From Affinundibacterium amnicola (GTDB lineage Bacteria > Pseudomonadota > Gammaproteobacteria > Burkholderiales > Burkholderiaceae_D), in NCBI RefSeq assembly GCF_014284275.1, contig NZ_JACOFU010000002.1:418623-482622 (forward strand): a stretch of 64,000 nucleotides of DNA. Reading direction: 5' to 3'. Shown piece after piece: positions 10,746 to 17,219 of this stretch; position 1 is the first letter of the stretch; every line of letters begins with the position of its first letter. The translations under genes were made by a program, and so were the position numbers. A model generated the notes under the pieces. It worked only from the letters and a program-made list of their open reading frames with translations. It ran no database searches and was not told where the DNA came from.

Positions 10746-11981
10746 ATGGAAGGTTTGCACCTCACCGCGGATTGCTTTGATTGTCAATGCGATCCCACGC
10801 TATTATTCGGAGAAAAACGCTTAAGCGAATTAGTTCGTCAACTCACGATGCAAGCAGGTTTAACCATCGTCGGCGAGAAATTTCATGCATTTACATATGC
10901 CGATGGCAGTGCTGCAGGGGTGACTGGCACCCTGCTTTTGGCCGAATCGCATGTCGCCATTCATACCTGGCCTGAGCGACAAGCAGTGACGCTGGATGTG
11001 TATGTCTGCAATTTTGAAAACGACAATAGCGCAAAAGCACGTGACATCGTCGATCAATTAATCACGGTTTTTCAGCCACAACAGGTTTCACGTCAAGCAT
11101 TGCAACGTGGTTTGCCAGCAGTAAATAAACCAATTCAAGCAATAGAATACTTAAGTCCATACACAACGATGCAAACGCAAATTGATTGCGTGTTGGCAGA
11201 AGTCCAAAGCCCTTATCAACTGATACAAATTGCGGACACACCGGAGTTCGGCAAAATCATGCGCATCGACGGCGCCATGATGACTTCAGAAAAAGATGAA
11301 TTCTACTATCACGAATGCCTAGTACACCCAGCCGCCATTACGCATGGCAATCCACGAACGGCATTGATCATCGGTGGCGGCGACGGTGGCTCGACCGAAG
11401 AATTATTAAAATATGCCAGCATACAAAACATCACGCTATGTGAAATTGATGAACAAGTCATTGCGCTCTCGCGACAGCATTTAACGGCAATTCATAAGAA
11501 TGCGTTTGACTCACCCAAGCTCAACATCATTCATACCGATGGCTTTGCTTTCATCCAAAACCGTCAAGAACAATACGATTTAATTTTATTAGATCTGACC
11601 GATCCGATTGCGCCAAATGGCAGCAATTTAGCAGAGTCGTGCATGAGCGAAGCATTCTTCCGCACTTGTTTTGCACGACTAAATTACGGCGGTTTGATTG
11701 TATTGCATTTGGGTAGTGAGTTTTACCATCAAGCGCGCTATCAAACTACGCTTACACGTCTTCAAAATGTGTTTGATACAGTCAGCCCCTACTCCGTTTT
11801 TATTCCACTGTATGGCGCGATGTGGGGAATGGCGATTGCGGGTAAATCACAGACGACATCAACGACATCGCTCCCCAAAAATCTTGATCAAGCGACGATT
11901 CAAGATAGATTAGATGCACAAGGCATTTCTCAATTGCAGTTCTACGGTGCGGCGCGACACGTCAGCTTATTTGCTAGCTGA
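10746..11981 (+). CDS. Fused S-adenosylmethionine decarboxylase / spermidine synthase
   Basis: Bifunctional 411-residue protein predicted to make spermidine. Residues about 1-120 are a bacterial SpeD domain. Its pyruvoyl-forming serine should be Ser68 in AESHVAIHTWPE, with His73 and Cys88 (TLDVYVCN) matching the processing and catalytic residues of the family. Residues about 130-405 are a SpeE-like aminopropyltransferase. It has FGKIMRIDGAMMTSEKDEF, the SAM-site glycine motif IIGGGDGGSTEELL, the acidic CEIDEQV and the catalytic-loop LLDLTDP. Decarboxylated SAM made by the first domain could serve the second directly. Fusions of this kind are known but uncommon; most Burkholderiales have separate genes. 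It heads a co-directional cluster with a YgiB-like lipoprotein, a glutathionylspermidine-synthetase-like ligase and a DUF350 protein, which fits spermidine supply to the ligase. The pairing is inferred from gene order. Confidence 0.93.
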   Translation: MEGLHLTADCFDCQCDPTLLFGEKRLSELVRQLTMQAGLTIVGEKFHAFTYADGSAAGVTGTLLLAESHVAIHTWPERQAVTLDVYVCNFENDNSAKARDIVDQLITVFQPQQVSRQALQRGLPAVNKPIQAIEYLSPYTTMQTQIDCVLAEVQSPYQLIQIADTPEFGKIMRIDGAMMTSEKDEFYYHECLVHPAAITHGNPRTALIIGGGDGGSTEELLKYASIQNITLCEIDEQVIALSRQHLTAIHKNAFDSPKLNIIHTDGFAFIQNRQEQYDLILLDLTDPIAPNGSNLAESCMSEAFFRTCFARLNYGGLIVLHLGSEFYHQARYQTTLTRLQNVFDTVSPYSVFIPLYGAMWGMAIAGKSQTTSTTSLPKNLDQATIQDRLDAQGISQLQFYGAARHVSLFAS

Positions 11982-12133
11982 TTTGCAGCAGAAAAAGCTA
12001 ACACAAACCAAGAAACAACAGGCAGCCAACAACGGTAAAACAAAATAAGGAACACCATCACAAGCCAAGATCGGCACATTACAATAACGAGTCAACTCAA
12101 ATCTAATTTCCTCGAAGAGAAAAAGGAGTGCTC

Positions 12134-12577
12134 ATGAGCACAATCCAAAAACATAAACGCCGCAGTTCGCAAACACTGCCACTGGTTCTCGCAACCTCTG
12201 CAGCAGTGGTTAGCCTAACTGGCTGCGGTGGTGAAACAAACAATCTCGCCAGTGTGCGCGATGAATATAAAAATCTGGAAGATTGCAAAGAAGATTGGGG
12301 AAGCACAGATCCTTGCCAACCACAACCAGCACCACCGAATAGTAATGCGATAGCAAATACAGGCAACACCTCTGGTGGCTACATTTACAGCGGACGCTAT
12401 TGGGGACCTAGTTATTACGAAGGGCAACGTGATGTCGCCCAACGCAATATTCTTGGTAGTCGCTTTACGGGTAGCGGTTCGCAATTGAGTGATCGTGCGG
12501 TCAGCCGCAGCATCACGCGCAGCGTCAGTCGCGGCGGATTTGGATCAAGCTCACGTGGCTTTTCTGGCGGAGGCTAA
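12134..12577 (+). CDS. YgiB-like lipoprotein ending in Gly-Gly-Gly
   Basis: The protein is 147 residues. The ATG at 12134 is chosen because AGGAG lies 5 bases upstream; a GTG two codons earlier overlaps that site. A lipoprotein signal ends in LTGC (Cys31). The mature part has a Cys-containing segment (LEDCKEDWG then DPCQPQP), a Tyr/Gly-rich middle, and a Ser/Arg/Gly tail with SRGGFG near the end and Gly-Gly-Gly at the very C-terminus. The EDC segment, the RGGFG motif and the small-residue tail match E. coli YgiB (DUF1190) as I recall it. YgiB is encoded beside ygiC, and here too the YgiC-like gene follows, 5 bp after this stop codon. Biochemical function is unknown. It could be a substrate or anchor for the ligase; this is hypothesis. 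Confidence 0.8.
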   Translation: MSTIQKHKRRSSQTLPLVLATSAAVVSLTGCGGETNNLASVRDEYKNLEDCKEDWGSTDPCQPQPAPPNSNAIANTGNTSGGYIYSGRYWGPSYYEGQRDVAQRNILGSRFTGSGSQLSDRAVSRSITRSVSRGGFGSSSRGFSGGG

Positions 12578-12582
12578 AGCAC

Positions 12583-13713
12583 ATGATTCGTGAATCATTA
12601 ACGCCACGTTCGAACTGGCAACGACAATTCGAAGATCTGGGGTTTAGCTATCACTCAATTGATGGCTTGTACTGGGACGAACGCTACGCTTATCGCTTCA
12701 GCGCAGCACAAATTGACGTCTTAGAACAAGCAACCATAGACCTGCACCAAATGAGCCTGCAAGCTGTTGATCATGTCATTCGTCAAGGACAGATCGAACG
12801 CTTTGCGATCCCAGAAGCTTTCTGGTCACAAGTCGAAGAAAGCTGGCGCGACAAAGAATTTTCGCTATTCGGCCGTTTTGATTTAAGCTGGAACGGCACT
12901 GGTGCACCTAAAATGTTGGAGTACAACGCCGACACGCCAACTGGCTTGGTCGAGTCCTCAGTTGCGCAATGGTATTGGTTGCAAGATGTCCATCCCAACG
13001 CCGATCAATTTAATTCATTACACGAAAAGCTAATCGATCAATGGAAGAAGTTTGATGGCAAAGGTGTGTTGCATTTTGTCTGCGCAGATAGCGAAGAGGA
13101 TATCGGCAATCTATCTTATTTGCGTGATACGGCAATTCAAGCTGGATTTGCGACCAAACAAAATAGCATTAGCGATCTGGGTTGGGACGAAGCAAATGCA
13201 GAATTAGTCGATGACAATGATGTAAAAATAGAGAACTTATTCAAGCTCTATCCTTGGGAATGGTTATGTCGAGAACAATTCGCCACCCATTTACTAAGCC
13301 GCCCTGCCCGCATCATAGAACCTGCATGGAAAATGCTTTTATCTAACAAAGCCATTTTGCCAGTGCTTTGGGAATTATTTCCCGATCACCCCAATCTATT
13401 GCCAGCCTACGCAGAAGCATGGCGCATTAGCGGCAATTTTGTGAAGAAACCTTTGCTATCACGCGAAGGAGAAAACATTTCCATCTATGCTGATGGCAAT
13501 GTCATGCATACTGAAGGCGAATACGGACAAGAAGGATTTATCTATCAAGCCTATGCACCACAACCCAAATTTGATGATGGCATTACGCCTGCATATACCT
13601 CGATTGGTTCTTGGGTGGTTGGCGATGAGGCTGCAGGCATAGGCATACGAGAAGACGAAACTTTGATTACAAAAAATACCAGCCGCTTTGTCCCACATTA
13701 TTTTATCGACTAA
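12583..13713 (+). CDS. Glutathionylspermidine-synthetase-like ATP-grasp ligase (YgiC/YjfC type)
   Basis: The 376-residue protein matches the ATP-grasp half of glutathionylspermidine synthetase. In that family the ligase activates the glycine carboxylate of glutathione and joins it to a spermidine amine. Recognisable segments are GRFDLSWNGTGAPKMLEYNA, DTPTGLVESS, the acidic FVCADSEEDIGN, and the late ATP-grasp strand KKPLLSREGENI. The N-terminal CHAP-type amidase domain of the bifunctional E. coli Gss is absent, as in YgiC and YjfC. SD GGAGG overlaps the end of the ygiB-like gene, implying coupled translation. The spermidine-making fusion gene upstream supports a polyamine substrate. The acceptor carboxylate is not known. 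Confidence 0.9.
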   Translation: MIRESLTPRSNWQRQFEDLGFSYHSIDGLYWDERYAYRFSAAQIDVLEQATIDLHQMSLQAVDHVIRQGQIERFAIPEAFWSQVEESWRDKEFSLFGRFDLSWNGTGAPKMLEYNADTPTGLVESSVAQWYWLQDVHPNADQFNSLHEKLIDQWKKFDGKGVLHFVCADSEEDIGNLSYLRDTAIQAGFATKQNSISDLGWDEANAELVDDNDVKIENLFKLYPWEWLCREQFATHLLSRPARIIEPAWKMLLSNKAILPVLWELFPDHPNLLPAYAEAWRISGNFVKKPLLSREGENISIYADGNVMHTEGEYGQEGFIYQAYAPQPKFDDGITPAYTSIGSWVVGDEAAGIGIREDETLITKNTSRFVPHYFID

Positions 13714-13770
13714 TTTTTCGACTGAATTACACCATCAAACAAACATCTACTACGGATTAGAAAGTACATC

Positions 13771-14178
13771 ATGAGCGCACAATTTTTAGCCTATGGCTTC
13801 CCTGCTTTTATAAGCCACTTTGGTTCGGCACTGGCATTTTTATTTGTCTTTATCGCGATTTATATTCGCATCACTCCCTACAAGGAAATTGCCTTAATCC
13901 GCGAAGGCAATACCGCCGCCTCGGCCAGCTTATCAGGCGCGGTTTTAGGTTATTGCATTGCCTTAGCATCCTCAGTTGCACATAGCGTCGATTTGCCTGA
14001 TATGCTGATTTGGAGTGCGATTGCTTTGGTCATACAATTACTGGCCTTTGTCATTGCCCGGATTTTATTACCCGACCTCGTCAAGGATGTACCAAACAAT
14101 AAGCTAGCATCTGGTATTTTCTTAGGCGCTTTGAGTTTAGGAATGGGCATACTGAACGCGGCCTGCCAATCTTATTGA
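13771..14178 (+). CDS. DUF350 membrane protein (YjfL type)
   Basis: Small hydrophobic protein of 135 residues with four predicted membrane helices (about 10-30, 45-68, 76-96, 112-132). The helix-1 boundary YIRITPYKEIALIREGNTAA is typical of DUF350, with a conserved charged stretch between helices 1 and 2. DUF350 genes often sit beside glutathionylspermidine-synthetase-like ligases; the E. coli yjf cluster carries yjfL and yjfC. Here it follows the ligase by 57 bp. Its role in the membrane is unknown. It ends the polyamine cluster; rsmE begins 36 bp later on the same strand and may be transcribed from the same message. Confidence 0.88.
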   Translation: MSAQFLAYGFPAFISHFGSALAFLFVFIAIYIRITPYKEIALIREGNTAASASLSGAVLGYCIALASSVAHSVDLPDMLIWSAIALVIQLLAFVIARILLPDLVKDVPNNKLASGIFLGALSLGMGILNAACQSY

Positions 14179-14214: not shown

Positions 14215-14940
14215 ATGTCTCGTTTTTTCTGCCCTCTTCCACTGACTATCGGCGCGCAAATTGATCTGCCTGCTGATACTGCTCATCATATTTTTGTATT
14301 ACGTTTAAACATCGGTGAGCATGTCGAACTTTTTAATGGTGAGGGTGGTAGCTACCTAGCAACGCTCACATCGATCAACAAAAAACAGGTCAGTGCCGAA
14401 GTCAAAGTTTTTTTGCCAGAGGAAGTCGAATTAGCTTTCAATTTAAGCCTCGCGCAAGCATTACCAGAAGCGTCAAAAATGGATTGGATCATCGAAAAAG
14501 CCATCGAACTTGGCGTCAACCATATTCAACCGTTGGCGGCACAACGCAGCGTGGTTAAATTGAATCCAGAACGTGCGGAGAAGAAAAAACAGCACTGGCA
14601 AGGCATCATACAAAGCGCCACAGAACAATGCGGCCGTAAGCGCGTAGCCCATCTGGCTGAGCTGGTCGATGTGCAAAAATGGTTGATGCAACAGGATATG
14701 CACAAACGAATTCTGCTATCTCCACGTGCCGATCAGTCTTTGTTTGATTGGACCAGACATCATCCGGCGCAAGCATTGACCATCATGGTTGGACCTGAAG
14801 GCGGGTTCTCCGATAGTGAAGAGCAACTCGCGATCAAACAAGGCGCAATCATGTTGAGCATGGGACCACGCGTACTCAGAACAGAAACCGCCGGGCTCGC
14901 TGCAATTAGCGTCATCAGTGCTGCATGGGGCTGCATGTAA
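14215..14940 (+). CDS. rsmE: 16S rRNA m3U1498 methyltransferase
   Basis: SPOUT-class RNA methyltransferase that methylates N3 of U1498 in 16S rRNA. The 241-residue length is standard. The N-terminal PUA-like part starts MSRFFCPLPL. The C-terminal SPOUT knot has MVGPEGGFSDSEE and the closing segment LSMGPRVLRTETAGLAAI, both diagnostic for RsmE. QALPEASKMDWIIEKAIELG is the usual central motif. It follows the DUF350 gene closely, but its housekeeping role is unrelated to polyamine ligation. Confidence 0.95.
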   Translation: MSRFFCPLPLTIGAQIDLPADTAHHIFVLRLNIGEHVELFNGEGGSYLATLTSINKKQVSAEVKVFLPEEVELAFNLSLAQALPEASKMDWIIEKAIELGVNHIQPLAAQRSVVKLNPERAEKKKQHWQGIIQSATEQCGRKRVAHLAELVDVQKWLMQQDMHKRILLSPRADQSLFDWTRHHPAQALTIMVGPEGGFSDSEEQLAIKQGAIMLSMGPRVLRTETAGLAAISVISAAWGCM

Positions 14941-14979
14941 ATACTCGATCAACATCAAATTATGCTATTAAATAAAAAT

Positions 14980-15582
14980 ATGAAAAACTACTTCTTACCT
15001 GCGCTACTTACTTTCTTCGTCGGACAAGCTAGCTTAGTGCAAGCGCAAGTCAAACAAGAAGCACCACTGGTCTCCATCTCTACACATGATGCGTTCTTCG
15101 ATCAACTGCGCCAACTATGTGGCAAAGCTTTTGAAGGAAAAGTCGCTGTTGACAATCCAAAATCTGAAGGCTTCGAAGGAAGACTTGTGATGCACGTACG
15201 CAAATGTACCGATACGCAATTGCAGATTCCATTTCATGTAGGCGACAATCATTCGCGCACGTGGATCATTACAAAAACTGGCTCCGGCCTCTCACTCAAG
15301 CACGACCACCGCCACGCCGACGGTAGTCATGATGCACAAACTATGTATGGCGGACATACGCTGGATGCAGGCTGGAATAACGTACAATCCTTCCCTGCGG
15401 ATCAGTATTCGAAAGAATTATTTGCTCGCTTAGGCGGTGCTCAGTCAATCACCAATGTTTGGCAAATATTTATTTATCCAACTAGTTTTAGTTATCGTTT
15501 AACACGGGAAGGACGTGAATTCCGAGTAAATTTCGATCTCACAAAGCCAGTTGGAATCCCTCAAACACCTTGGGGATATTGA
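14980..15582 (+). CDS. Secreted protein of unknown function
   Basis: About 200 residues. The ATG at 14980 puts a clean Sec signal peptide first (KNYFLPALLTFFVGQASLVQ, then AQ). An in-frame ATG six codons upstream (14962) is possible. Neither has a clear ribosome site. The mature part has LRQLCGKAFEGKV, RLVMHVRKCTDTQLQIPFHV, RTWIITKTGSGLSLKHDHRH and the C-terminal FRVNFDLTKPVG. I recall a conserved family of uncharacterised secreted proteins with the LCGKAF...MHVR.C...IPFHVG pattern, but cannot name a domain. The two cysteines could form a disulfide. The HDHRHADGSHD cluster could bind metal; this is speculation. Confidence 0.75.
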   Translation: MKNYFLPALLTFFVGQASLVQAQVKQEAPLVSISTHDAFFDQLRQLCGKAFEGKVAVDNPKSEGFEGRLVMHVRKCTDTQLQIPFHVGDNHSRTWIITKTGSGLSLKHDHRHADGSHDAQTMYGGHTLDAGWNNVQSFPADQYSKELFARLGGAQSITNVWQIFIYPTSFSYRLTREGREFRVNFDLTKPVGIPQTPWGY

Positions 15583-15848: not shown

Positions 15849-17219
15849 ATGAAATTCATAAAAAAAGATGCGTTATTGGCGAGTATAGTTTTAGGGCTTG
15901 CTCTCACACTCAGCGGCTGTAGTGGTGGTAATAATGAAGTCGAATCAAACTCTATTGCCTTAAGCAGTCCACCAAGTGCGGCGCCTGCCGATACAACCAC
16001 TGTTGATGCATCTCGAAATGTGTATGCAATTAAGCGCAGTAGCTTAGGATTTTCGCTGGTAAACAAGGGTATCGCTGGTGGCGTAACGAATTTATCCTCA
16101 AGCCAAACCGTCATCAAATTCAATGACTTTACCGTCAATCTTTTAGCCGGGGATAAATCTAAAACGATTGCACGGCATGATTTAAATATGCTCATTGAGC
16201 TTTACATTGCCTTCTTTAATCGAGTACCAGATGCAGAAGGAATGATTTATTGGATAGAAACAATTAAGGCTGGTCGGACGATAGAGCAACTGGCTGACAA
16301 TTTCTATACCGCTGCAATTGAAGCACCGGCAGACACGGGGTATTCGGCGAATATGAATACCGAAGAGTTTATACGGAAAATTTATAAAAACGTCTTGGGG
16401 CGCGATGAAGTCGATCAAGGTGGTCTTGAATACTGGTCCTCTGAAATCAATAGCGGTGGCAAATCTCGCGGAAATCTGATTCGTGACATTATCAATGCGG
16501 CTCATAGTTTTAAAAATGATACTGAGTACGGCTGGGTCGCGGATCTGCTAGATAACAAAGTGATCGTCGGCACTTACTTTTCTATCCAACAAGGTCTAAA
16601 TTACAATACGCGAAGTGAGTCAATCACAAGGGGAATGAAAATCGCAGGCATGGTAAAACCGAACGATATCTCCGCTGCGATAAATGAAATCGGTATCACG
16701 GACAGCGCACTGGATTTAAGAAATCCACAGCCGATACCGCAAGTAACAATCAGTACTTCGATGGGAGATATTTTAGTTGAGCTTAATCCTGAGAAAGCGC
16801 CAATCACCGTCACTAATTTTTTACGTTATACCGATGTCGGATTTTATAGTAATAAAATTTTTCATCGTGTCATCAGTAACTTTATGATCCAAGGTGGTGG
16901 CTTTACCACAAGCCTTGTTCAATCTTCCACTTATGCACCAATACAGCTAGAGGTAAATAAGGGCCTGAGCAATGTGCGCGGTTCCATTGCAATGGCACGT
17001 ACCAATGTATTTGATTCTGCAACGGCACAATTTTTCATCAATGTTGAGGACAATATTCTATTAGATACCAACGGTGGTGGTTATGCCGTCTTTGGACGTG
17101 TCATCGCTGGCATGGATATCGTCGACAAGATCAAAGTCGTACCAACCACCACATATGGGGGGCTAGAAAATCTGCCAACAACACCTGTGTTGATTGTATC
17201 TGTGACACGCGCCAACTAA
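15849..17219 (+). CDS. Lipoprotein fusing a DUF4214 domain to a cyclophilin-type peptidyl-prolyl isomerase
   Basis: The 456-residue protein starts with a lipoprotein signal ending LSGC (Cys24), then a low-complexity Ser/Ala linker. Residues about 110-235 hold a DUF4214-like repeat region (LYIAFFNRVPDAEGMIYWIE, later IYKNVLGRDEVDQGGLEYW), a module found in S-layer-like and RTX-type surface proteins. Residues about 298-456 are a cyclophilin domain: TSMGDILVELNPEKAPITV, FLRYTDVGFYSNKIFHRV, FMIQGGGF, ATAQFFINVEDN and YAVFGRVIAGMDIVDKIK. The catalytic core Arg (FHRV) and the QFF segment are intact, so isomerase activity is plausible. It is probably anchored in the envelope. I do not know this fusion as an established architecture. 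A terminator follows. Confidence 0.9.
   Translation: MKFIKKDALLASIVLGLALTLSGCSGGNNEVESNSIALSSPPSAAPADTTTVDASRNVYAIKRSSLGFSLVNKGIAGGVTNLSSSQTVIKFNDFTVNLLAGDKSKTIARHDLNMLIELYIAFFNRVPDAEGMIYWIETIKAGRTIEQLADNFYTAAIEAPADTGYSANMNTEEFIRKIYKNVLGRDEVDQGGLEYWSSEINSGGKSRGNLIRDIINAAHSFKNDTEYGWVADLLDNKVIVGTYFSIQQGLNYNTRSESITRGMKIAGMVKPNDISAAINEIGITDSALDLRNPQPIPQVTISTSMGDILVELNPEKAPITVTNFLRYTDVGFYSNKIFHRVISNFMIQGGGFTTSLVQSSTYAPIQLEVNKGLSNVRGSIAMARTNVFDSATAQFFINVEDNILLDTNGGGYAVFGRVIAGMDIVDKIKVVPTTTYGGLENLPTTPVLIVSVTRAN

Follow-up and report, generated by a model that had tools for sequence, protein, structure and literature searches.

A conserved C-terminal RGGFG tail accompanies YgiC-type ATP-grasp ligases and may mark envelope lipoproteins for polyamine attachment

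We analyzed a 64,000-nucleotide stretch of the Affinundibacterium amnicola genome (contig NZ_JACOFU010000002.1; hereafter the window; host genome, 4.58 Mb) and focused on a gene cluster at positions 10746-14178, with all genes on the + strand. The cluster encodes, in this order, a fused SpeD-SpeE polyamine enzyme, a short lipoprotein, an ATP-grasp ligase of the YgiC/YjfC type, and a DUF350 membrane protein. Its features are as follows.

10746-11981 (+), fused S-adenosylmethionine (AdoMet) decarboxylase/spermidine synthase (SpeD-SpeE); Pfam PF02675 (E 6.5e-26), PF17284, and PF01564 (E 1.8e-43)
12134-12577 (+), lipoprotein of 147 aa, distantly DUF1190/YgiB-like, proposed substrate; profile matches below cut-off, PHROG 3739 (E 2.2e-5)
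12134-12226 (+), signal peptide with lipobox LTGC (Cys 31), read from the translation
12530-12574 (+), C-terminal tail RGGFGSSSRGFSGGG ending Gly-Gly-Gly, with RGGFG at 12530-12544
12569-12573 (+), GGAGG, the likely Shine-Dalgarno (SD) sequence of the ligase gene, within the last Gly codons of the lipoprotein
12583-13713 (+), YgiC/YjfC-type ATP-grasp ligase of 376 aa; PF03738 GSP_synth (E 7e-145), relatives 7uk6 and 7uk8, AlphaFold model
13771-14178 (+), DUF350 membrane protein of the YjfL family; PF03994 (E 1.4e-35)

We placed the start of the lipoprotein at ATG 12134; the listing of open reading frames (ORFs) opens earlier, at GTG 12128. The protein begins with a basic n-region and a hydrophobic stretch, followed by the LTGC lipobox, and ends in RGGFGSSSRGFSGGG. 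Its match to DUF1190 (PF06693; Pfam E 0.03, 15.1 bits) falls under the 22-bit cut-off and does not place it in that family, and its match to NCBIfam PRK11653 (E 3.8e-4) reached 20.3 bits with a cut-off of 223. The protein has the features of the tailed partner proteins described below: an N-terminal signal, an RGGFG-like C-terminal motif, a Gly/Ser end, and a linked ligase gene. An initial annotation of this DNA had claimed the gene set and its single direction, a ribosome-binding site of the ligase gene overlapping the lipoprotein gene, and a ligase resembling glutathionylspermidine synthetase (GspS) but without its amidase domain. All of this was borne out: every part of the cluster was as described, the GGAGG lies within the last codons of the lipoprotein gene and ends 9 nt ahead of the ligase ATG, and the ligase has a full-length PF03738 match as its sole Pfam match, with no match to an amidase domain.

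PF03738 was present in 61 of the 299 Pseudomonadota genomes that we sampled. We compared the PF03738 loci of those genomes (minus two fragmentary matches) with the window, two E. coli loci, and 80 named loci, which are the best 80 of 578 confirmed and hence biased towards the window ligase. Once 13 short duplicates were removed, 149 loci were kept, comprising 138 YgiC-type loci (the window, 2 from E. coli, 55 from the sampled genomes, and the 80 named ones; 77 clusters at 70% identity), 10 loci with bifunctional GspS, and one degenerate homologue (L059). Taxon groups were assigned from record titles. The upstream ORF was picked without regard to the motif, as the longest same-strand ORF with its end -45 to +130 nt from the ligase, and the background consisted of 3638 ORFs of at least 100 aa on both strands, many of which are not genes.

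Of the 137 immediate upstream ORFs, 102 (56 clusters) had GGFG among their last 50 residues, compared with 15 of the 3638 background ORFs; a looser pattern, G[FLY][GTKM], was found in 125/137 and 345/3638, respectively. In the downstream ORFs, which served as a control, GGFG was absent (0/78) and the looser pattern was found in 11/78. Combining the five-residue motif with a reading of the remaining loci, we located a protein with an RGGFG-like C-terminal tail at 136 of the 138 YgiC-type loci, all but L106 and L053; 12 of these tails were placed by hand, two of them off-pattern (L124 and L144). None of the 10 bifunctional GspS loci contained an ORF of at least 60 aa bearing such a tail; one is encoded beside the degenerate homologue L059. 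The pair of tailed protein and ligase was found in records titled Pseudomonadota, Bacteroidota, Acidobacteriota, Actinomycetota, Planctomycetota, and Verrucomicrobiota, as well as in jumbo and T4-like phages. When the protein bodies before the motif were paired, only 15 of the 3821 pairs between phylum groups were similar (E 1e-3), compared with 121 of the 150 drawn from within the five smaller groups; the feature common to the partners across phyla is thus the tail. A rough rule, on which we did not rely for conclusions, assigned a lipobox to 77 of 124 partner proteins, an anchor without lipobox to 31, and neither to 16. Most upstream tails (103/122) stop within 10 nt of the ligase start as placed here, or overlap it. 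DUF350 was found in 48 of the 89 loci flanked by 4 kb on either side, the set used for counting neighbouring genes.

We also considered whether one genome might hold several substrates, in the manner of sortases, and rejected this. The RGGFG pattern had eight matches in the DNA of the window's own genome, of which three are in frame within an ORF: one in the window lipoprotein, one in an ORF of 257 aa that ends in SGSGGFGLGNKPVAK, and one located 26 residues before the end of a 43-aa ORF. We judged the latter two not to be tail-like; the pattern excluded variants such as RSGFG and RGGLG.

The end of the tail was less uniform than the motif. Among the 136 tails the terminal residue was Gly in 78, Ser in 43, Glu in 10, Thr in 2, Ala in 2, and Met in 1. 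Terminal Gly prevailed in Actinomycetota (8/9), Delta-type (3/4), and the remaining Pseudomonadota (67/89); terminal Ser in Bacteroidota (12/14), Planctomycetota (4/4), and Verrucomicrobiota (5/6); and terminal Glu in Acidobacteriota (6/7), with three further loci ending in Ala, Met, and Ser. When the residues after the motif were shuffled in 73 cluster representatives, terminal Gly was observed 35 times with 21.2 (standard deviation 3.6) expected, a value reached in 2 of 5000 shuffles, and penultimate Gly 56 times with 21.2 (standard deviation 3.7) expected, a value reached in none of 5000. The tail end is thus under selection, for a small residue after Gly, which is not strictly Gly. A strict terminal-glycine rule was discarded, as 58/136 tails end otherwise. 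RGGFG is the better conserved feature; the initial annotation had seen it but gave it no weight. Acidic residues made up 21 of 939 positions (2.2%) after the motif in the 73 representatives, compared with a background of 6.8% for the final 15 residues of other ORFs, and 60/73 representatives had no acidic side chain there at all, so that in most tails the C-terminus is the sole carboxylate from the motif on. This scarcity is the main sequence argument and suggests that the C-terminus is the acceptor. The idea that the C-terminal Gly mimics the glycine of glutathione therefore holds in part: the association of tail and ligase extends across phyla and phages, but Gly is the last residue in just 78/136.

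We next compared the distribution of DUF1190 with that of the ligase. PF03738 matched in 87 of 92 genomes with DUF1190 (PF06693), compared with the 61/299 overall. Of the five DUF1190 genomes without a ligase, G087 (3 contigs) and G1025 (~110 contigs) are rated 100% complete, and in neither does the DUF1190 protein have an RGGFG tail. In G1025 the contig extends ~3 kb beyond the DUF1190 gene, and a search of the genome found no ligase. In G187, the tail is present on the protein linked to the ligase and absent from three unlinked DUF1190 matches, which are weak and partial. This co-occurrence test favours the tail as the partner of the ligase, in small numbers. It also bears on the earlier expectation that a terminal Gly is conserved only alongside the ligase: the tail is indeed missing from the two complete ligase-less genomes, but terminal Gly is not universal where the ligase is present. 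G087 (L174) and G1025 (L204) are possible natural loss experiments, with genomes of the same genera (G816 and G413) that have both ligase and tail.

The best solved relatives of the window ligase were YgiC (7uk8, 6e-106) and YjfC (7uk6, 3.3e-99), with identities of 46% to YgiC and 40% to the part of YjfC covered by the compared locus. Its AlphaFold model (pLDDT 91.8) gave TM-scores of 0.95 to YjfC and 0.89 to GspS. Judged by its sequence, the enzyme is a member of the amidase-free YgiC/YjfC family, for whose E. coli members the joining of spermidine to a peptide has been reported. R98, D100, E113, N115, K289, R294, and R356, which we take to be the ATP-grasp catalytic residues, are common to the ligase family and the 10 GspS, and R316, D318, E330, and N332 of GspS have retained aligned counterparts in the window ligase. 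Every one of the 77 representatives has T118-P119-T120 in place of the S335-A-S337 motif of GspS, presumably its glutathione site (Ser335/Ser337). The residues E295, E357, and H372 are found in the YgiC-type family and not in GspS; together with T118-P119-T120, W130, Q142, N144, K250, and W344, they are candidates for determining specificity. As the catalytic residues are kept and the glutathione-site motif is changed, the ligase chemistry has probably been retained and the acid substrate altered.

Two side observations concern relatives of the ligase. The degenerate homologue (L059, 2687-3853, - strand) is YgiC-like with 31% identity and has lost E113, N115, and the active-site KP motif; it adjoins a DUF1190 lipoprotein ending RGGFGARAASVGTGGG, and the other ligase of the same genome (L053) lies elsewhere. 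Ligase relatives were also carried by 167 plasmid records, 54 of them from Rhizobium.

The SpeD-SpeE fusion of the window is the only AdoMet decarboxylase match and the only full-length SpeE match in its genome, the two other PF01564 matches being partial. SpeD and SpeE occurred together in 3/89 loci with 4 kb flanks (the window, L082, and L084), and homospermidine synthase in 4/138 loci (L094, L096, L123, and L128), some of which have short flanks. Five of the six synthase loci outside the window are titled Burkholderiales or Betaproteobacteria; L096 is titled only Proteobacteria. Betaproteobacteria often lack spermidine, which may be the reason why the operon brings its own synthase. Given the homospermidine synthase at these loci and in Achromobacter phage Motura, the amine need not be spermidine.

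The phage collection contained 139 records with a ligase relative. We examined 10 of them, all with at least 36% identity, and left out the distant ones. In 9/10, a lipoprotein with an RGGFG-like tail is encoded directly upstream or at most 0.55 kb off, and seven of the nine tails end in Gly-Gly; phage DSS3_VP1 (L231) had no tail within the examined stretch. In Motura, the genes for homospermidine synthase, the tail lipoprotein, and the ligase follow in a row, an arrangement parallel to SpeD-SpeE, lipoprotein, and ligase in the window. One of the nine records (L230, labelled Acinetobacter phage MD-2021a) has the housekeeping genes mpl, alx, and hpt around the ligase and is probably host chromosome. 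L227, L228, L229, and L232-L236 are jumbo and T4-like phages that encode the ligase together with the tail lipoprotein; an annotated lysis-inhibition gene is close to the pair in Aeromonas phages 44RR2.8t.2 and phiAS4.

We propose, as a reasonably probable reading, that a dedicated lipoprotein is joined by the ligase, through its C-terminal carboxylate, to a polyamine before export, with RGGFG as the recognition tag. In the window, SpeD-SpeE would make spermidine. Using ATP, the ligase would phosphorylate the C-terminal carboxylate of the newly synthesized lipoprotein, which we infer to be its natural substrate, and join it through an amide bond to one of the polyamine's primary amines, as GspS does with the glycine of glutathione. 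RGGFG near the C-terminus would be read by the ligase, and the flexible Gly/Ser end could reach the active site. The modification would take place in the cytoplasm ahead of export, helped by side-by-side translation of both genes; the stopping of so many tails next to the ligase start fits such translation and timing. The product would be an envelope lipoprotein, or an N-terminally anchored membrane protein, with a polycation at its free end and not a carboxylate. The capped protein would probably act at the membrane surface together with DUF350, and it is our guess that the cationic tip acts at the membrane or the wall. The attachment of spermidine to the lipoprotein C-terminus, as first suggested for this locus, is thus supported in part, by the kept catalytic residues, the loss of the Ser-Ala-Ser motif, and the rarity of acidic side chains, but the amine may differ, as the homospermidine synthase loci indicate. 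Put more broadly, there is an even chance that a system widespread in bacteria and phages uses a polyamine (spermidine or homospermidine, sometimes made by the same operon) to cap a single dedicated envelope protein at its C-terminus, and that RGGFG is a portable signal read by the ligase, like the LPXTG of sortases.

Several observations weigh against this proposal. The final location of the tail is expected to be outside the cytoplasm, with the ligase and ATP inside, and this objection stands unless modification precedes export. The terminal residue varies between Gly, Ser, and Glu, and strict mimicry of glycine by the acceptor thus does not hold; tails ending in Glu carry two carboxylates at their end, and enterobacterial YgiB has a second carboxylate directly after the motif (Glu or Asp; Glu in E. 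coli YgiB). Some ligases lack a tailed partner: no tail turned up within 6 kb of L106 or in the vicinity of L053 (whose genome carries one on another contig), and L218 and L220, which are second ligase copies, are likewise without one. The linked DUF1190 protein of G702 (L210) has a deviant tail, and L219 shows a partial motif alone. Conversely, the tail is retained in three ligase-negative genomes (G957, G1064, and G1071); in each, the contig breaks off 0.2 to 1.5 kb away from the gene, on the side expected to hold the ligase. For G1064 and G1071, this side was inferred from G806, where the tail and ligase genes diverge. The DUF1190 match of G1025 covers part of the profile only, as do the unlinked matches of G187, and linkage to a polyamine synthase is rare.

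The terminal glycines could be a mere by-product of the GGAGG ribosome-binding site of the ligase at the gene end, as its position over the last Gly codons in the window invites one to think. Among 69 upstream tails ending in Gly, nine have an SD-like 4-mer over their final codons, but 60 lack one. Moreover, 12 tails are downstream of, divergent from, or well separated from the ligase; Gly is the last residue in 10 of them (L021, L035, L043, L071, L072, L073, L123, L128, L188, and L212), and the other two have Thr (L038) and Ser (L070). The last residue is likewise Gly in all five phage tails that are encoded 0.4-0.55 kb ahead of the ligase (L228, L232, L234, L235, and L236). We mostly reject this explanation, which is now hardly credible. 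A possible but rather unlikely variant keeps the tail and the enzyme and replaces the amine with homospermidine, putrescine, or an amine of the membrane or wall, spermidine being one in vitro substrate. The homospermidine synthase found in place of SpeD/SpeE and the scarcity of SpeD and SpeE at well-covered loci fit such a variant, but the window operon has SpeD-SpeE and the published activity uses spermidine.

It is improbable that the tail acts solely outside the cell membrane, binding metal, lipid, or peptidoglycan, with the ligase co-travelling through a shared envelope stress system. PspA, DUF2170, and DUF2491 were found in 10/89 loci, and DUF1190 is called a metal-chelating lipoprotein in the available part of PMC11237479. 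However, the tail is lost without the ligase though the DUF1190 body persists, and DUF350 was not found in 41/89 and PspA in 79/89 loci, nearly all of which keep tail and ligase. The tail could also be cut off, the lipoprotein being a precursor from which the ligase makes a small peptide-polyamine conjugate. This would suit a short, variably spaced tail on bodies that differ between phyla, but many of these bodies have export signals or anchors by the rough rule given above, and no protease gene was noticed at the loci, where none was searched for; we regard such processing as quite improbable. Very improbable, finally, is a ligase that makes a small metabolite (glutathionyl-spermidine or -homospermidine) and is linked to the lipoprotein by function only. 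The name of the family points that way, as does a 2023 proposal that hss-gss clusters, one of them in phage Motura, are potential makers of glutathionylhomospermidine (available part of PMC9992855). Yet YgiC is reported to lack glutathionylspermidine synthetase activity (Sui 2012, as quoted in the available part of PMC12506659), the glutathione-site motif is changed in 77/77 representatives, and Motura has an RGGFG lipoprotein between hss and the ligase, which in our view makes a protein conjugate more likely there than glutathionylhomospermidine.

If correct, C-terminal polyamination by the ligase would be a new bacterial protein modification. It would give a role to DUF1190 and many unannotated lipoproteins, lead to a re-reading of phage genes annotated as glutathionylspermidine synthase, and account for the polyamine synthase in the operon of some Betaproteobacteria. 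Peptide-spermidine ligase activity of E. coli YgiC and YjfC was reportedly described by Pederick and colleagues in 2023 (Biochemistry 62:899; doi 10.1021/acs.biochem.2c00592). RefSeq names both enzymes peptide--spermidine ligase, probably after that work. The literature searched contained no natural substrate of YgiC/YjfC, for which the tail is a concrete candidate answer. The same search, which left most subscription journals outside, found no paper on the RGGFG tail in the available texts. The ligase family was already known, and our analysis suggests the tagged lipoprotein as its partner.

Beyond the cluster, rsmE follows the DUF350 gene at 14215. Downstream of rsmE, 14962-15582 (+) encodes a secreted-looking protein of 206 aa that matched neither Pfam nor NCBIfam at E 0.1, and 15849-17219 (+) encodes a predicted lipoprotein which, read by eye, we take to be a DUF4214-like region fused to a cyclophilin-type isomerase. 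A repeat scan gave just short two-copy families, and promoter and terminator matches were no more numerous than in shuffled sequence.

Among known systems, GspS and trypanothione synthetase resemble the window ligase in their ATP-grasp fold, with the four aligned GspS residues retained; the window ligase differs from GspS in lacking an amidase match, in having TPT for SAS, and in having a lipoprotein partner. In eukaryotes, a C-terminal Gly-Gly-spermidine amide of SUMO sets a precedent for the proposed bond; like our proposal, the SUMO and ubiquitin conjugates involve a Gly-Gly carboxylate, spermidine, and ATP, but they are made by E1/E2 enzymes and not by an ATP-grasp ligase (available part of PMC12270671). 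The mass added by spermidine is listed there as +127.147 Da. The PspA-CesT/Tir polyamine operons described in 2024 combine an ATP-grasp ligase with DUF350 and DUF1190; the available part of that paper (PMC11237479), which cites a 2019 study by Li and colleagues on AdoMet decarboxylase linkages, does not mention the tail motif or the lipoprotein as a substrate. The hss-gss clusters have a polyamine synthase beside the ligase, as in the window, but were read as making glutathionylhomospermidine, and the intervening lipoprotein gene is not discussed in the available part of PMC9992855. Closest are the E. coli pairs YgiB-YgiC and YjfM-YjfC, in which a lipoprotein with an RGG[FY]G tail ending in Gly-Gly is encoded directly upstream of a ligase of the same family, as in the window. 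YgiB has RGGFG and ends in SRSMGG, confirming the Gly-Gly end that the initial annotation had stated, and YjfM has RGGYG and ends in RGHWGG. The E. coli yjf cluster carries DUF350 (YjfL), like the window. Unlike the E. coli pairs, the window has no PspA, DUF2170, or DUF2491 gene adjoining the cluster, its lipoprotein is short and under the DUF1190 cut-off, and it adds a fused SpeD-SpeE.

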